Origin: Salinicoccus carnicancri Crm
Lineage (GTDB): Bacteria; Bacillota; Bacilli; Staphylococcales; Salinicoccaceae
Direction: 5' to 3'
Assembly: GCF_000330705.1 (NCBI RefSeq)
Contig: NZ_ANAM01000001.1
Location: 248,001-312,000, forward strand
DNA length: 64,000 nucleotides
The notes under the pieces were generated by a model, which saw nothing but the letters and a program-made list of their open reading frames with translations, searched no databases and had not been told where the DNA came from. The translations under genes and the position numbers were made by a program. Each line of letters opens with the position of its first letter. The stretch's first letter is position 1. Shown piece by piece: positions 16,139-64,000 of this stretch.

Positions 16139-16229
16139 GAATATCACCACCTTGAATTATAGTTGTATCATATCATAATCACATTGATATGCATAAATGA
16201 GTCGTTACATTTTATTTACATAAATAAGA

Positions 16230-41339: not shown

Positions 41340-43388
41340 ATGGCAGAACATGACCATAATCATCATGATCACGACGGTCATGATGGTCACAATACGCATC
41401 AGCATGATGGCGCGGGACATGAAGGGCACCATCATCACGGGGATTTCAGGAAGAAGTTTTTCATATCCCTGATCCTTGCGGTACCTATCATCTTCCTTTC
41501 TCCGATGATGGGGATCGACCTGCCCTTCCAGTTCACTTTCCCGGGTTCCAGCTGGCTTGTGCTGGTTCTTGCCACTGTACTTTATATTTATGGCGGCCAG
41601 CCTTTCCTGGGCGGAGCGAAGGGTGAGATTAAGGCACGCAAACCAGGGATGATGACGCTGATTTCACTGGGGATATCGGTTGCGTATTTCTACAGCCTCT
41701 ATGCATTTTATATGAATCATTTCGGGGCGCCTGATGCACACACGATGGATTTCTTCTGGGAACTGGCTACACTGATTGTCGTCATGCTGCTTGGACACTG
41801 GATTGAGATGAAGGCGGTTGGCAATGCCGGAGATGCCCTCGAGAAGATGGCGGAATTGCTGCCGAGCACTGCGGTTGTCCTGGATGAAAATGGAGAAGGC
41901 AGGGAAGTTGAACTTTCTGAAGTGGGCGAGGGCGACACTGTACAGGTTAAAGCCGGGGACAATATACCGGTGGATGGTGTAATCATATCCGGCCGTACGA
42001 CTGTGGACGAAGCGCTCGTTACAGGGGAGTCGCGCAATATCGAAAAGGTTCCGGACGATGACGTGATCGGCGGCTCGGTGAACGGGTCGGGGACGATTGA
42101 TGTGAAAGTTACCGGGACCGGTGAAAGCAGCTATCTCACGCAGGTGATGGATCTGGTCAGCGAGGCACAGAGTGATAAATCGCGGTCGGAACTCCTGTCT
42201 AACCGGATTGCGGGATATTTATTCTACTTTGCCCTGATCACCGGACTGCTGGCATTCATCATCTGGCTGATGGTTTCAGGGACAATGGACTTTGCGCTTG
42301 AACGCCTGGTGACAGTGCTCATCATCGCCTGTCCACATGCACTCGGACTTGCAATTCCGCTGGTTACTGCAAGGTCGACATCACTCGGTGCGAAAAATGG
42401 CCTCATCGTCAAAAACCGGGAATCTCTCGAGACGGCCCGTCATCTGGATGTGGTCATGATGGACAAGACAGGTACATTGACTGAAGGGAATTTTGCGGTG
42501 AATCATTACAAAAGCTTCACCGACGAATATACTGATGATGAAGTGCTCGGCTTCATGGCGGGAATCGAACAGAGTTCCAGCCATCCCCTGGCAGCCGGCA
42601 TACTTGATAAGGCCCGTGCTGATAAGGTGGAAGCTGCAAAGGCCGAAGACGTCAACAACATACCTGGTGTTGGTCTCGAAGCGCAGGTTGCAGGCAAGGA
42701 TATGAAAGTTACAAGCGTCTCCTACCTTGAAGATAATGGCATTTCCTATGACAAAAAAGAGTTCGAGACCCTGGCAGGCCAGGGCAACTCCGTCAGTTTC
42801 CTTATCATAGAAGGTGAAAACAGCGGCATAGTTGCCCAGGGCGACCAGATCAAACCGGGTTCCCAAAAGATGATTGAGGGGCTGCTTGAACGTGATATCA
42901 CGCCTGTCATGCTGACGGGGGACAACAGACAGGTTGCAGAGTCCGTCGCATCGGAGCTCGGCATCAAGGATGTGCACGGTCAGCTGATGCCTGAAGACAA
43001 GGAACGCATCATCAGGGAGTATCAGGAGGAAGGCAGCAAAGTGATGATGGTGGGTGACGGAATCAACGATGCACCGAGCCTTGTGAGGGCGGATATAGGT
43101 GTTGCCATCGGTGCCGGTACAGACGTTGCGGTGGAGTCCGGGGATGTCATACTCGTCAAAAGTGAACCGTCCGACATCATCCACTTCCTTTCATTGTCAG
43201 AGAACACGATGAAAAAGACGGTGCAGAACCTATGGTGGGGCGCCGGCTACAACATTCTGGCAGTGCCTCTTGCGGCAGGAATCCTCGCTTCCATCGGCAT
43301 ACTGCTGTCACCGGCTGTGGGAGCTGTGCTGATGTCTCTAAGCACAATAATCGTCGCCTTGAATGCAATGACGCTCAAATTGGATTGA
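41340..43388 (+). CDS. copB: Copper-exporting P1B-type ATPase CopB
   Basis: 682 residues. The first 34 residues are almost all His, Asp and Gly ([14 protein letters not shown]), a metal-binding tail in place of CxxC domains. The membrane metal motif is CPH at 331-333, defining the CopB (P1B-3) group; TGES in the actuator, DKTGT with phosphorylated D375, HP in SSSHPLA and GDGINDAPS complete the ATPase. It expels copper from the cytoplasm, probably passing it near the lipoprotein CopL. Expression is likely induced by copper through the operator at 40694-40720. Confidence 0.95.
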
Positions 43389-59014: not shown

Positions 59015-59797
59015 ATGAAGGAACAGAGTATTATTTTCTTTGATATTGACGGTACGCTGCTGGATACGGATAAAAATCTTCCGGAGTCCGCCAAAAAGTC
59101 GGTGGCCCGGCTGAAAGAGGACGGGCATATCGTGGCGATTGCCACAGGCCGCGCACCTTTCATGTACGAGGAGCTGCGCAAAGAACTCGACATCGATACG
59201 TTCGTCAGCTGTAATGGCCAGTACGTCGTGCTGGAAGGGGAAGTGATCTACCAGAACCCGCTCCACAAGGAGGATCTTGTAGCACTGACCAAAGAGGCAC
59301 TCGGCAATGACCACCCGGTCGTCTATCTCAGTGAAGAGGATATGATGTCGAATGTTCCGGAACATGAGTACATTAATGAGGGCATCGCTTCGCTGAAACT
59401 TGGAATTATGCCGGGCCACGATCCCGAGTATCTTCACGGCCGCGACCTGTATCAGACGCTGCTGTTCGTACCCGAAGGGGAAGAGGGGCAGTACATCGAT
59501 AAATATGACAACTTCGATTTTATCAGATGGCATCCGGTTTCAATGGACGTCATTCCGAAAGGGGCATCAAAGGCCGAAGGCATTGCCAAGGTAATCGATG
59601 AACTGGGTCTGCCTGCGGAAAGGCAGTATGCCTTCGGCGACGGCCCGAACGATCTTGAGATGCTGAGCACCGTCCACCACAGCTTTGCCATGGGCAACGC
59701 CAAGGATGAAGTGAAGTCAAAAGCCAGGCATATTACGAAGCATGTGAATGACAATGGTGTCGAACATGGTCTGAGGATGGCCGGGCTGATTCAATAG
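59015..59797 (+). CDS. Cof-type HAD-superfamily phosphatase
   Basis: 260 residues. Motif I FFDIDGTLLDTD with nucleophile D10 and acid D12, motif II ATGRA, motif III Lys in KGASKAEGI and motif IV FGDGPNDLEML, with a C2-type cap domain between. Family members remove phosphate from sugar phosphates, flavin nucleotides or similar small molecules; the substrate is not predictable. AGAGGTG precedes ATG. A terminator follows. Confidence 0.9.
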   Translation: MKEQSIIFFDIDGTLLDTDKNLPESAKKSVARLKEDGHIVAIATGRAPFMYEELRKELDIDTFVSCNGQYVVLEGEVIYQNPLHKEDLVALTKEALGNDHPVVYLSEEDMMSNVPEHEYINEGIASLKLGIMPGHDPEYLHGRDLYQTLLFVPEGEEGQYIDKYDNFDFIRWHPVSMDVIPKGASKAEGIAKVIDELGLPAERQYAFGDGPNDLEMLSTVHHSFAMGNAKDEVKSKARHITKHVNDNGVEHGLRMAGLIQ

Positions 59798-59810
59798 GGA
59801 TATCTGCTGG

Positions 59811-59839
59811 GAACTGTGGTACTGCCACAGTTCTTTTTT
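59811..59839 (+). terminator. Terminator after the HAD phosphatase gene
   Basis: GAACTGTGG and CCACAGTTC form a perfect 9-bp stem with a 5-base loop and T6. Confidence 0.9.
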
Positions 59840-59850
59840 ATTGCCGTAAT

Positions 59851-59893
59851 ATTGATCCCGGTCAATTTTTTGTCTGGGAATCCATCATATAAT
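59851..59893 (+). promoter_or_regulatory. FNR/FLP-type box and promoter of the metal ATPase operon
   Basis: ATTGA-N6-TCAAT (59851-59866) is a Crp/Fnr-type box. TATAAT lies at 59888-59893, with no good -35 element 17 bases upstream. A start near 59900 would place the box centre (59858.5) at -41.5, the class II activator position. Confidence 0.65.
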
Positions 59894-59947
59894 AATAGGT
59901 GAAGAAAGGGCTAAGGCCCAAAAAAACCGAAGGAAGAGGTAATCAAT

Positions 59948-60166
59948 ATGAAAACGAAACTTCAGACAGAAACGTTCACATGTCCGAGCTGCATCAAAAA
60001 AATCGAAGATAACCTGAAAAAGCGGGAAGGAATCGAGGCGGCAAAAGTGCTGTTCAATTCCAGCAAAGTGAAAGTGGAACATGATGCAGGCGAGATCAGT
60101 CCCGATGAAATCAAAGATATTGTGGAAAAACTGGGCTATCCGGTACTAGATATGAAATCCGTATAA
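59948..60166 (+). CDS. HMA-domain metallochaperone (CopZ-like)
   Basis: 72 residues: one heavy-metal-associated domain, with the metal site FTCPSCIKKIEDNL (C12 and C15) and the ferredoxin-like pattern ending EKLGYPV. It binds a soft metal ion in the cytosol and likely passes it to the ATPase encoded 29 bases downstream. AAGAGGT precedes ATG. Metal identity is open: Cu, Zn, Cd or Fe are possible. Confidence 0.85.
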   Translation: MKTKLQTETFTCPSCIKKIEDNLKKREGIEAAKVLFNSSKVKVEHDAGEISPDEIKDIVEKLGYPVLDMKSV

Positions 60167-60195
60167 TCAGATAGAATGGGGAGAGGTGAAAGAAG

Positions 60196-62091
60196 ATGAA
60201 CAAGTGGTTTAACCGTCATCTGAACACACTGATGTATACATCGGGAATACTGATTGTCACCGGTCTCATTTTCAGGTTTGCCGGATACACTGAAGTCATG
60301 AACGTCACATTCATACTCGCAACGTTGGCTGCCATAGGTCCGATCATGCAGAAGGCGTGGATGGCGCTTTCCATGAAGAGCTTCAGCATAGAGCTGTTGA
60401 TTACGATTGCAGTAATCGGTGCGCTGTTCATTCAGGAGTATACAGAGGCGGCAATCGTTACATTCCTGTTTTTGTTCGGGGCATATCTTGAAAAACGGAC
60501 GCTCAGGAAGACACGGAGTTCCATCCAGTCACTGGTGGATATGGCGCCTTCGGCCGCTTCGGTCGTGAGGGATGGAGCAGAACTGGAAGTCGACATCGAT
60601 GACGTTGAGGAAGGCGACCGTGTCATTGTCAGGCCGGGCGGCAAAGTTCCGGTTGACGGGGTCATCGTCAAAGGCCGGGCGAATATAAATGAAGCGGCGA
60701 TCACCGGTGAATCCAACCTCAAATTCAAAACAGCGGCAGCGGAAATCTTCAGCGGCAGCGTGCTGGACAGTGGATACATCGAACTCGAAGCGACAAAAGT
60801 CGGCGAGGATACGACGTTTGCGAAGATCATCGAACTTGTGGAGGATGCGCAGGAGAAAAAGAGCGGTACTGAAAAGTTCCTGAACAAATTTGCGAATTAC
60901 TATACCCCTTCCATCGCAGTGATTGCAATTCTTGTGTATTTGCTGACACGCAACCTGCACCTGGCGATTACATTCCTTGTCATCGCATGCCCTGGTGCCC
61001 TGGTAATCGGCGCACCGGTCGCATATGTGGCAGGTATCGGCAACGGCGCCCGGAAAGGTGTGCTCATCAAGGGCGGGGAAATAGTAGATAACTTTGCAAA
61101 AATAGATACTGTGATCTTCGACAAGACAGGGACACTGACAGAAGGCAGGCCGTCTGTAACAAACATCCAGATTTTCGATGATACAGATGAAGATGAATTC
61201 ATGAAGGATGTCGCGGAAATCGAGATGGTAAGTGAGCATCACCTTGGTCAGACCATCGTCACGGAAGCCGGAAGCCGTAATCTGCATCCGGACAAAGGGA
61301 ACGTCAGTGACGCCGAAGCAATAAAAGGTAAAGGTGTCAGCGGTGCGCTTGGGAATGACAACTACATCATCGGCAATCAGAAACTGATGGATGACTATGA
61401 TATCGCCATATCAAGGGATATCCGCGTGCGTTATGTAAGAGAGCAGAAAGAGGGCAACACGGCAATATTCGTAGCGAAGAACGGCAAAATTACCGGTATC
61501 GTGTCCATCATGGATAAGATCAGGAACGATGCCGCCGCGACCATACGGGCTTTCCGCGGCAGGGGCGTGAAAAACCTGGTCATGCTGACAGGCGACAACA
61601 GACATGCTGCAAAAAGAGTGAGCGACATACTTGGACTGGACGGCTTCCAGGCAGAACTCATGCCCGATGACAAGATGAAGTACATCGAGGAAGAGAAAGC
61701 GGCCGGCCGGAGAGTGATGATGGTCGGGGATGGCATCAATGATGCGCCGGCGCTGGCCTTTGCTGATGTGGGCATTGCGATGGGGCACGGAGGTACGGAT
61801 ATCGCAATGGAAACAGCTGATGTAGTACTGATGGGATCGAGTATGGAGCAGCTCGCCCATGGTTTCAACATTTCAAAAGCGTCATACCGGGTGATGCTAC
61901 AGAACACTGCCATCGCACTCCTCACAGTAGCATTGCTGCTTGCGGGAGTATTATATGGATATATCCATCTCGCATCTGGTATGCTGATTCATGAAGTGAG
62001 TGTCCTCCTTGTCATAGTGAATGCCATGAGGCTGATCAGGCTGAAGGACAGGCGGACCATAGCGGCGGAGCTCCGGGAAGGAGTGGGCTGA
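60196..62091 (+). CDS. Heavy-metal P1B-type ATPase with CPG motif
   Basis: 631 residues, no N-terminal HMA domain (the separate chaperone may replace it). The actuator TGES, phosphorylation site DKTGT with D309, and GDGINDAPA are intact. The membrane motif normally CPC or CPH is CPG (265-267), and the last helix reads HEVSVLLVIVNAMRLIRL, so the metal ligands differ from CopA, CadA and CopB. The HP motif appears as SEHHLG, which is also divergent. It should export or import a metal ion; the ion is uncertain. AGAGGTG precedes ATG. Cotranscribed with the chaperone and regulator genes. Confidence 0.87.
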   Translation: MNKWFNRHLNTLMYTSGILIVTGLIFRFAGYTEVMNVTFILATLAAIGPIMQKAWMALSMKSFSIELLITIAVIGALFIQEYTEAAIVTFLFLFGAYLEKRTLRKTRSSIQSLVDMAPSAASVVRDGAELEVDIDDVEEGDRVIVRPGGKVPVDGVIVKGRANINEAAITGESNLKFKTAAAEIFSGSVLDSGYIELEATKVGEDTTFAKIIELVEDAQEKKSGTEKFLNKFANYYTPSIAVIAILVYLLTRNLHLAITFLVIACPGALVIGAPVAYVAGIGNGARKGVLIKGGEIVDNFAKIDTVIFDKTGTLTEGRPSVTNIQIFDDTDEDEFMKDVAEIEMVSEHHLGQTIVTEAGSRNLHPDKGNVSDAEAIKGKGVSGALGNDNYIIGNQKLMDDYDIAISRDIRVRYVREQKEGNTAIFVAKNGKITGIVSIMDKIRNDAAATIRAFRGRGVKNLVMLTGDNRHAAKRVSDILGLDGFQAELMPDDKMKYIEEEKAAGRRVMMVGDGINDAPALAFADVGIAMGHGGTDIAMETADVVLMGSSMEQLAHGFNISKASYRVMLQNTAIALLTVALLLAGVLYGYIHLASGMLIHEVSVLLVIVNAMRLIRLKDRRTIAAELREGVG

Positions 62092-62115
62092 TTAGCAGGG
62101 TATGGGGGAAGAGAA

Positions 62116-62778
62116 GTGAAAAATCATCCAGGTCAGAAACTTTGTGTAAGGAACGTTCCTATTTTCAATCATCTGACAGACGGGGAAATGAATGAAGTGT
62201 TCAGCAAGGTCCATTCCACAGATTACAGAAAGAATGAACATCTTTATATGGCCGGGGATCTTGAACAGTCGCTGTATGTTCTTCACCAGGGCAAGATAAG
62301 GATCTACAGGCTGACTGATGAAGGCAGAGAACAGCTGATAAGGGTGCTGAAGCCCGGGGAGTTCACCGGGGAACTTTCCCTCTTCGGGACCGACAAGCCG
62401 CATGAATCATATGCGGAAATGATGGAGAAATCACAGGTCTGTGAAATCACCAAAGACGATATATACGGGTTGATGAAGGAATATCCTGATATCGGCATAA
62501 AGATAGTTGAGGAATTTTCAGAACGTCTTGAAGCGGCGGAACAGCAGACGACGAACATATCCCTGCTCAGCAGTGAAGAACGTCTGCTGGAATATATCAG
62601 GGGGCATGTGGATCAGGACGACTATGTGCAGCTTGAGATGACCAAAAGAGACCTGTCATCATACCTCAGTATGCAGCCCGAGACGCTGACACGCCTGTTT
62701 AAAAAGCTCGAGGCCCGGGGGGATGTTGAAAAACTGGACAATAAGACCTACAGGGTGCGCAACTATTCAATACTCTGA
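62116..62778 (+). CDS. FLP-type Crp/Fnr-family regulator
   Basis: 220 residues with GTG start behind GGGGGAAG. Cyclic-nucleotide-binding-like fold (VPIFNHLTDGEMNEVFSKV, LKPGEFTGELSLFG), dimer helix, then a winged helix with MTKRDLSSYLSMQPETLTRLFKKL. No N-terminal Fe-S cysteine cluster. Only two cysteines are present, C10 and C109, matching the spaced pair that forms a redox disulfide in lactobacillal FLP proteins. The box at 59851-59866 is a plausible target, so it probably regulates its own operon in response to thiol oxidation or metal. Confidence 0.85.
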   Translation: MKNHPGQKLCVRNVPIFNHLTDGEMNEVFSKVHSTDYRKNEHLYMAGDLEQSLYVLHQGKIRIYRLTDEGREQLIRVLKPGEFTGELSLFGTDKPHESYAEMMEKSQVCEITKDDIYGLMKEYPDIGIKIVEEFSERLEAAEQQTTNISLLSSEERLLEYIRGHVDQDDYVQLEMTKRDLSSYLSMQPETLTRLFKKLEARGDVEKLDNKTYRVRNYSIL

Positions 62779-62868
62779 GTGTCTGAGAGTTTCAGCAGTA
62801 TGGTTTATGCATGACAGCACCGGGTAGATTCATAATGATACTGACTATATTGGGAGAGGTGATAATGA

Positions 62869-63348
62869 ATGGCTAAAACGAAAGACGGCAAGAAGACGGA
62901 CAGGAAGAATGAGGTCAAAAAGTCACTGAACAAACAGGTGGCGAACTTTACCGTGCTATGGACGAAACTCCACAACTATCACTGGTATGTAAAGGGCCCC
63001 AATTTCTTTTCCCTGCATGAGAAATTCGAGGAACTCTACACCACTGCGGGCACCTATGTCGATGAACTGGCGGAAAGGCTGCTCGCCATCGGCGGTGAAC
63101 CGATCGGCAGACAATCCGATGCCATTGAGGCAGCCAGTGTAAAAGAGGCGGAGTATGACACAGAAGCCGACGATATGGTGAAGCAGCTGGTCAAGGATTA
63201 CAGTACTGTGATCAAAGAGCTTGATAAAGGTAAGAAGGCAGCAGAGGATGCAGGGGATGATCGCACGGCCGATATCTTCATCGGCATGATTACGGAAGTT
63301 GAGAAGAACAACTGGATGCTGAAATCCTTCCTCGGAAAGGATGTATAG
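62869..63348 (+). CDS. dps: Dps/ferritin-like DNA-protection protein
   Basis: 159 residues. A Lys-rich N-terminal tail (KTKDGKKTDRKNEVKK) may bind DNA. The ferroxidase ligands are placed as in Dps: H38, H50, D65 and E69, within LHNYHWYVKGPNFFSLHEKF and VDELAER. It stores iron and removes peroxide. GAGAGGTG precedes ATG 62869; an ATG four bases earlier opens a frame of three codons only. A weak PerR-like match lies at 62830-62844. Being next to the metal ATPase operon fits a stress role. Confidence 0.92.
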   Translation: MAKTKDGKKTDRKNEVKKSLNKQVANFTVLWTKLHNYHWYVKGPNFFSLHEKFEELYTTAGTYVDELAERLLAIGGEPIGRQSDAIEAASVKEAEYDTEADDMVKQLVKDYSTVIKELDKGKKAAEDAGDDRTADIFIGMITEVEKNNWMLKSFLGKDV

Positions 63349-63357
63349 ATGAGGGCG

Positions 63358-63390
63358 AAAAAAGTGGCTGGTACACCAGCCACTTTTTTT
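63358..63390. terminator. Bidirectional terminator between dps and the BCCT gene
   Basis: A 14-15-bp stem with A6 on one side and T7 on the other and a 2-base minimal loop (in practice larger) serves both convergent genes. Confidence 0.92.
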
Positions 63391-63403
63391 GGTTCACGTA
63401 TTT

Positions 63404-64000
63404 TTATTTGTCAGGTTTTCTGATGTTATACTTCCACGCTTCATCTTCATCCATCATTTTCTTGGCGGCATAGATCATGAGGAACTGGATGAAAATGATC
63501 GGGATGCCCATGATGCCCGAAACGACTTCGAGTGGTGCAAGACCGCCAATCTGCATGAGTACCAGGGCAAGTGCCGTTATGACGAAAGCCACAAAGATTC
63601 TGAGAAATTTTGACGGTTCCATCCTGCTCATGTCATTTCTGCTCGTGTAGGTGGCAATGGTGAATGTAGTGGAGTCGAGCGTCGTCGTCAGGAAAATCAA
63701 TGCAATGATGATGAAGAGCACCATCATCAACCCTGACAGGGGCAGTGTCTGCAGTATAGCCGGTATGAGCTGTACGGCCTCGTTATCCCCGAGCATCCCC
63801 AGGACATCGGTGCCGCCGTTCAGCTGCGCATTTACGCCAACACCTCCGAGGATTCCTGTCGCAACCCATGATATTGCCGTCGGTGCGAGCAGATATGTCA
63901 GGATCATCTCCTTGACGGTCCGGCCCCTGGAAATTTTGGCGGCGAATACACTGTGGAGCATCGCCCATGTTGCATTGTATGCCATCCAGAATATCAGGTG
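63404..64000 (-). CDS. BCCT-family betaine/choline transporter, C-terminal part
   Basis: The gene continues beyond the right edge; about 199 residues are present. Signature parts of the BCCT family are visible: ISRGRTVKEMIL after a helix with WMAYNATWAMLHSVFAAK, and LTTTLDSTTFTIATYTSR, the region of helix 11. The C-terminal cytosolic tail is short (KKMMDEDEAWKYNIRKPDK). Members import glycine betaine, carnitine or choline with sodium or protons for osmoprotection. The W-rich motif normally GxWTxFYWAWW at the substrate site would lie outside the window. Confidence 0.85.
   Translation of the reverse strand, partial: HLIFWMAYNATWAMLHSVFAAKISRGRTVKEMILTYLLAPTAISWVATGILGGVGVNAQLNGGTDVLGMLGDNEAVQLIPAILQTLPLSGLMMVLFIIIALIFLTTTLDSTTFTIATYTSRNDMSRMEPSKFLRIFVAFVITALALVLMQIGGLAPLEVVSGIMGIPIIFIQFLMIYAAKKMMDEDEAWKYNIRKPDK

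Follow-up and report, generated by a model that had tools for sequence, protein, structure and literature searches.

A conserved Crp/Fnr-type box at a near-constant distance from the −10 element of a metal-transport operon in Salinicoccus carnicancri

Results

The window, i.e., the whole 64,000-nucleotide stretch of Salinicoccus carnicancri DNA analyzed here, contains four consecutive genes for a metal carrier, a heavy-metal ATPase, a Crp/Fnr-type regulator and a Dps/ferritin-like protein, preceded by a proposed activator box and a −10 element (Table 1). The inverted repeat ATTGA-N6-TCAAT and the TATAAT that a preliminary description had placed at 59851–59893 are present exactly as described. 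The core box, TTGATCCCGGTCAA (TTGAT-CCCG-GTCAA, 59852–59865), has its center at 59858.5 and lies 22 bp from TATAAT. The same description had the center at exactly 41.5 bases from the start: the 22-bp gap behind this figure was confirmed, whereas the figure itself depends on the start assumed. With +1 taken seven bases past the final T of TATAAT, at 59900, the center falls at −41.5; with a start at 59899 or 59901 it would fall at −40.5 or −42.5. As the start is predicted and not known to the base, we treat the 22-bp gap as firm and −41.5 as its usual translation.

Table 1. Features of the operon and its upstream region (window coordinates)
Feature	Coordinates	Strand	Basis
Stem-loop plus T-run, intrinsic terminator of the Cof-type HAD gene upstream	59809..59835	+	terminator search
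Proposed activator box, inverted repeat ATTGA-TCCCGG-TCAAT	59851..59866	+	sequence, comparison
−10 element TATAAT, without extended −10	59888..59893	+	sequence
Predicted transcription start zone	59897..59901	+	inferred from −10 position
Probable ribosome-binding site GGAAGAGG ahead of the first gene	59932..59939	+	sequence
Gene 1, CopZ-like metal carrier of 72 aa, HMA domain with the metal-binding motif TCPSC	59948..60166	+	
Gene 2, heavy-metal ATPase of P1B type, 631 aa, with ACPGALVIG and HEVSVLLVIVNAMR as transmembrane motifs	60196..62091	+	
Gene 3, regulator of Crp/Fnr type, 220 aa, GTG start, cysteines C10 and C109 only	62116..62778	+	
Gene 4, 159-aa Dps/ferritin-like protein	62869..63348	+	

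The −35 region had been called poor, and the best match to TTGACA at spacers of 16–18 indeed agrees at only 2/6 positions; the promoter scan listed no sigma-70-like pair at the operon promoter. We rejected the upstream TTGA as the −35 of another start, as gap columns 23–28 showed no −10-like preference. At bases 59894–59901, the window and its relatives are unusually alike and carry an A/T-A-A-G-A-T-A-like run, perhaps reflecting a start-site preference. The terminator of the upstream gene is the only one in 59780–63500, where 2.7 were expected in shuffles, and since it ends just 5′ of the box, the operon needs its own promoter. No terminator was detected in the 90-bp gap between genes 3 and 4 (62779–62868), making their co-transcription possible; the gap has a weak promoter-like match at 62811–62839 and no box with fewer than three mismatches. 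An Rfam search of 59700–63500 with E up to 5 gave no riboswitch at the promoter and four weak matches, all near 63267–63459. The window also has another P1B-type ATPase region that passes the family cut-off, at 41649–43376 (+).

The bare box is no more frequent in the window than chance predicts, with one TTGA-N6-TCAA found and 1.92 expected, and we set these statistics aside as evidence. Across the 2.67-Mb genome, the same pattern occurs 65 times versus 22 in the reversed control; among the 14 strict palindromes, a convincing promoter position was judged only for the operon box, the row for L076 being uninformative. Combined with the 22-bp gap and TATAAT, the operon site was the sole exact match in the window, and with up to two mismatches two sites were found against 0.13 expected. 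The looser pattern TTGAY-N4-RTCAA-N22-TANNNT, hereafter the composite pattern, has exactly one exact match in the genome, the operon site. At up to one mismatch, the whole genome gave 19 matches versus 16 in the control, i.e., no excess, and further regulon members in this genome were not visible at that stringency. One such site, at 16156–16197 (−), has its next open frame with a ribosome-binding site 249 bases past the box start, and that frame is transporter-like. In the 3.4-kb locus of the ferritin gene of this genome (G000:C1:198157-198567), no composite site was found at two mismatches or fewer. Because the genome yielded no other composite site, the arrangement looks like a dedicated local switch.

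We compared the locus across 33 genomes of the family. A protein search found a close regulator in 29 of them (35–100% identity, E ≤ 8.7e-37), distant matches only in G005, G017 and G022, and none in G018. The distant Crp/Fnr protein of G022 (27% identity) reached 1e-31 in the profile search, the level of second distant copies elsewhere, and was counted as a paralogue, the orthologue being absent. The ATPase co-occurs with the regulator: all 29 genomes with a close regulator also have a close ATPase (45–100% identity), whereas the four others have ATPase relatives of only 37–40% identity and a single match to the composite pattern against two in the control.

The box travels with the operon genes. 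All 27 orthologous family loci that we fetched, which were chosen through the regulator and stem from related genomes such that the counts are not independent, carry one or more boxes followed by TA...T at a gap of exactly 22 bp, 5′ of the HMA, ATPase or regulator genes. The spacing is constant across differing gene orders: HMA–ATPase–regulator–Dps as in the window; regulator–Dps alone; regulator, then ATPase and HMA with a separate box apiece; and divergent HMA and ATPase with one box each way. The gap of 22 accounts for 37 of the 76 box strand-hits, each palindrome being matched on both strands (next commonest gap, 8 strand-hits). In G023, G027, G028 and G030, the regulator stays with Dps, and the ATPase and/or HMA genes are found elsewhere with the same box and gap; in L049–L052, where HMA and ATPase have moved away, the box lies 5′ of the regulator gene itself. 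In one G028 cluster (L258), two HMA boxes are accompanied by an ATPase of 45% identity that carries a box of its own, by one Dps-like and one distant Crp-like gene, and by a 477-aa open frame that by eye resembles a multicopper oxidase.

A regulator-blind search of the 33 family genomes with the composite pattern alone gave 77 matches versus 13 in the reversed control; as the genomes are related, these counts and those of regulator and ATPase co-occurrence are not independent. Sixty-three of the 77 lie 5′ of HMA (38), ATPase (21) or regulator (4) genes; eight of the remaining 14 are in long opposite open frames and probably due to chance. A composite box is found 93 bases 5′ of a ferritin gene in G004 (L277 1460-2056 (+); Pfam Ferritin, 4e-36), and others precede a 98-aa protein without a Pfam family (L266 and L279). 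L271 has a similar box and no start found downstream. In L254, a box identical to that of the window, TTGATCCCGGTCAA, lies 5′ of a putative lipoprotein gene with an Ig-like domain; L253, of the same genus, has it at the matching place with a different first open frame; the lipoprotein link is clear in L254.

Order-wide, the composite pattern occurs in 125 of 150 genomes with the regulator present or not; the sorting of matches by downstream gene covers the family. A scan of genome records through the regulator, which makes the sample lean toward it, provided the best 80 of 254 loci, among them Neobacillus, Planococcus, Trichococcus, Alkalibacterium and Clostridia. Fifty-nine of the 80 are outside the family, and TA...T is found at gap 22 in 68 of their 168 box strand-hits, the next gaps having 14 each. 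The exact site is present in 40 of the 59 loci: in 39 of the 47 with HMA or ATPase and in 1 of the 12 with neither. Nineteen lack it, eight of them despite HMA or ATPase, and boxes at gap 21 or 23 or without a −10 are seen in L151, L154 and L139.

Pooling the window, the 27 family loci and the 59 outside loci gave 103 distinct sites, whose first open frame is HMA in 46, ATPase in 34, regulator in 7, other in 14 and none in 2; at least three of the others (L127, L140 and L148) are wrong-frame readings ahead of HMA genes. Across 106 gap-22 sites, the best −35 at spacers of 16–18 reaches 4/6 in six sites and is never higher, such matches being rarer than in shuffled segments, and an extended −10 is present in six.

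Plasmid records matched the regulator in 457 cases at E ≤ 1e-15, mostly from Enterococcus, Lactococcus, Leuconostoc and Listeria. In the seven plasmid stretches that we read, gap-22 boxes lie 5′ of HMA and ATPase in L209–L213, of Dps in L210, L211 and L212, and of the regulator in L209 and L211. The exceptions are the regulator of L212 (gap 21), the HMA of L214 (gaps 21 and 23) and L215, which has a one-mismatch site only; in L210, an IS30 transposase gene is located between box and regulator. Rfam searches of 13 loci found NiCo riboswitches in two, both from Alkalibacterium (L129 9253-9364 and L141 8864-8971), where they precede or lie near a second P1B ATPase adjoining the HMA/ATPase/regulator set.

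The preliminary description had the regulator as the third gene of the operon and called the box FNR-like. Gene 3 is indeed of Crp/Fnr type, with Pfam cNMP-binding and Crp-type HTH domains, and its C10 and C109 as well as E189 and R193 of the recognition helix are kept in 87/87 relatives. The sensing part of the protein, however, is not of the FNR type. FNR proper has four cluster cysteines, three of them N-terminal; the regulator has C10 and C109 only and thus lacks the four-cysteine cluster and is not a [4Fe-4S] FNR. Judged by eye against R82/S83 of CRP, the cAMP-binding arginine–serine pair is also absent, GELSLFGTDKPHESYAE having no arginine. The two conserved cysteines, one N-terminal and the second about 97 residues on, form the pattern of Flp proteins, their counterparts in L. 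casei Flp being at positions 5 and 102. As in Flp systems, the regulator is the last of the metal-transport genes (HMA–ATPase–regulator), and Dps follows. Homologues on Lactococcus plasmids are 28–32% identical to the regulator, and its own genome gives a single match at E ≤ 0.001. The structure model is weak (mean pLDDT 73.4, pTM 0.49), and a fold search with it lists Crp/Fnr structures.

Several neighbors of the box point toward iron: the Dps gene behind the regulator, the plasmid boxes 5′ of Dps, the box 5′ of the ferritin gene in L277 and a FetB iron-exporter gene near a box-bearing Dps on a Listeria plasmid. The box also precedes genes of the ScdA/hemerythrin type, known for iron-cluster repair, in L132 and L138. 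That relatives have Dps, ferritin and iron-cluster-repair genes behind this box hints at iron. Other observations point toward zinc: L. lactis flp mutants reportedly have a zinc phenotype, and Listeria ATPases bear a ZosA-like label in two papers, which counts if they are assumed to be the same ATPases (PMC6985202, PMC7054086). The CPG motif of the ATPase is kept in 62 of 66 relatives. We set aside metal assignment from ATPase motifs, as we know of no experiment that assigns a metal to CPG. Iron-exporting P-type ATPases are described as P1B4 (PMC7762939), and one potential iron exporter reportedly carries an SPC motif (PMC6091924), in contrast to the CPG of the window ATPase. A Listeria P1B ATPase tied to a NiCo (czcD) riboswitch is described as making B. 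subtilis without pfeT resistant to Fe(II) (PMC7689651; also PMC6985202, PMC9484302); it may be a different ATPase from that under the gap-22 box.

Discussion

The preliminary description had recognized the geometry of a promoter dependent on a Crp/Fnr-type activator. The constant spacing in the family, the missing −35, the movement of the box with the genes and the joint absence of regulator and ATPase all agree with that, and the comparative data are best explained by class II activation through the Crp/Fnr-type regulator that the operon itself encodes. For CRP and FNR, it is established that class II activation is marked by a near-constant distance between site and −10 and by the lack of a −35. 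In the proposed mechanism, a dimer of the gene-3 protein would bind the palindrome TTGATCCCGGTCAA; centered about 41.5 bp 5′ of the start, i.e., at a class II site, it would replace the absent −35 and recruit RNA polymerase. The bound regulator would then raise transcription of its own operon, comprising the HMA carrier, the P1B ATPase of CPG type and the regulator itself, and probably also Dps. On the comparative evidence, we are highly confident that an Flp-type gene-3 protein autoregulates the HMA/ATPase/regulator/(Dps) operon in this way, as an activator at a class II site.

The same protein on the same box could instead mainly repress, covering the −35 region until released upon a signal. 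The box does overlap the −35 region, and some Crp/Fnr proteins repress from sites placed there. Yet repression does not call for a fixed helical spacing relative to the −10, and all family loci share the gap of 22; moreover, with a −35 of at most 4/6 and an extended −10 in 6/106 sites, there would be little to repress without help, and we consider mainly repressive action unlikely. The box could also be real and serve another activator, be it a diverged second protein of the Crp/Fnr group or some unrelated regulator. Crp/Fnr paralogues share half-sites, and several relatives hold second, distant Crp/Fnr proteins; against this, the window's own genome has a single match to the regulator, the box precedes the regulator gene itself in L049–L052, and the regulator and the box-bearing ATPase are jointly absent from 4/33 genomes, making a different activator highly improbable. 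That a chance inverted repeat happens to lie ahead of an ordinary promoter would fit the number of bare boxes, about two expected per 64 kb, but is scarcely credible given that the box and its exact gap are conserved across the family and beyond.

For class II activation by the gene-3 protein, the likely input is a change at C10 and C109, by disulfide formation or metal binding, and the response would probably be to export or handle metal and to protect against peroxide. In S. suis, however, a C129S change in FlpS left arcABC expression unchanged, and cysteine sensing is thus not assured (PMC5039431); the same study lists the Dps-like dpr as differentially expressed in the flpS mutant (PMC5039431). 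A regulon widespread in Bacillota, in which a two-cysteine Flp-type protein and not Fur or PerR activates a CPG-type P1B ATPase for Fe(II) export along with Dps/ferritin iron storage and iron-cluster repair, all with near-constant class II spacing, is a tentative proposal that we regard as rather doubtful. Our literature search, thin on subscription titles, found no published account of a Bacillota-wide spacing rule or of the link to Dps, ferritin and ScdA. Searches joining FNR-like regulator, FNR box, heavy-metal P-type ATPase and Firmicutes, or Salinicoccus Crp and P-type ATPase, likewise returned nothing within a coverage that mostly excludes such titles.

A single box is thereby extended to a defined regulon with a consensus (TTGAY-N4-RTCAA-N22-TANNNT), a regulator and core targets that recur on plasmids and in many Bacillota. 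Both the signal and the metal of Flp-type proteins thereby become testable. If the metal is iron, the regulon would amount to a switch for iron export and storage that lies outside the Fur/PerR family.

The closest known systems are those of the Flp proteins. L. lactis FlpA and FlpB, L. casei Flp and S. suis FlpS have two cysteines, like the regulator of the window. The L. lactis Flp operon has the layout orfX-orfY-flp with FNR-like sites, and an L. lactis plasmid (L213) has the same gene set as the window with gap-22 boxes 5′ of ATPase and HMA. Published studies describe Gram-positive FNR-like proteins with two cysteines and activation of arcABC by S. suis FlpS (PMC5039431), and list FlpA among the metal-homeostasis regulons of Lactobacillales (PMC3616900). 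For L. lactis MG1363, one report gives a different motif 5′ of flpA and flpB and states that the region 5′ of flpB lacked the FlpA motif that had been proposed for IL1403 (PMC3547956). Unlike these systems, the window has Dps behind the regulator and a regulon that seemingly consists of one operon, and its host is a Salinicoccus, not a lactic acid bacterium.

Class II promoters of E. coli are defined by a site centered at about −41.5 and a weak or missing −35. The CRP and FNR promoters of this class share with the window the center, half-sites of the kind TTGAT-N4-ATCAA and the lack of a good −35; the window regulator differs from CRP and FNR in having neither the FNR cysteine cluster nor the cAMP arginine–serine pair. 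The plasmid clusters of Enterococcus, Listeria and Leuconostoc (L210, L211 and L212) likewise combine Dps, regulator, HMA and ATPase with gap-22 boxes, having several separate boxes where the window has one. The locus is a further member of the FlpA-type kind of metal-homeostasis regulon, found here in Salinicoccus with Dps behind the regulator.
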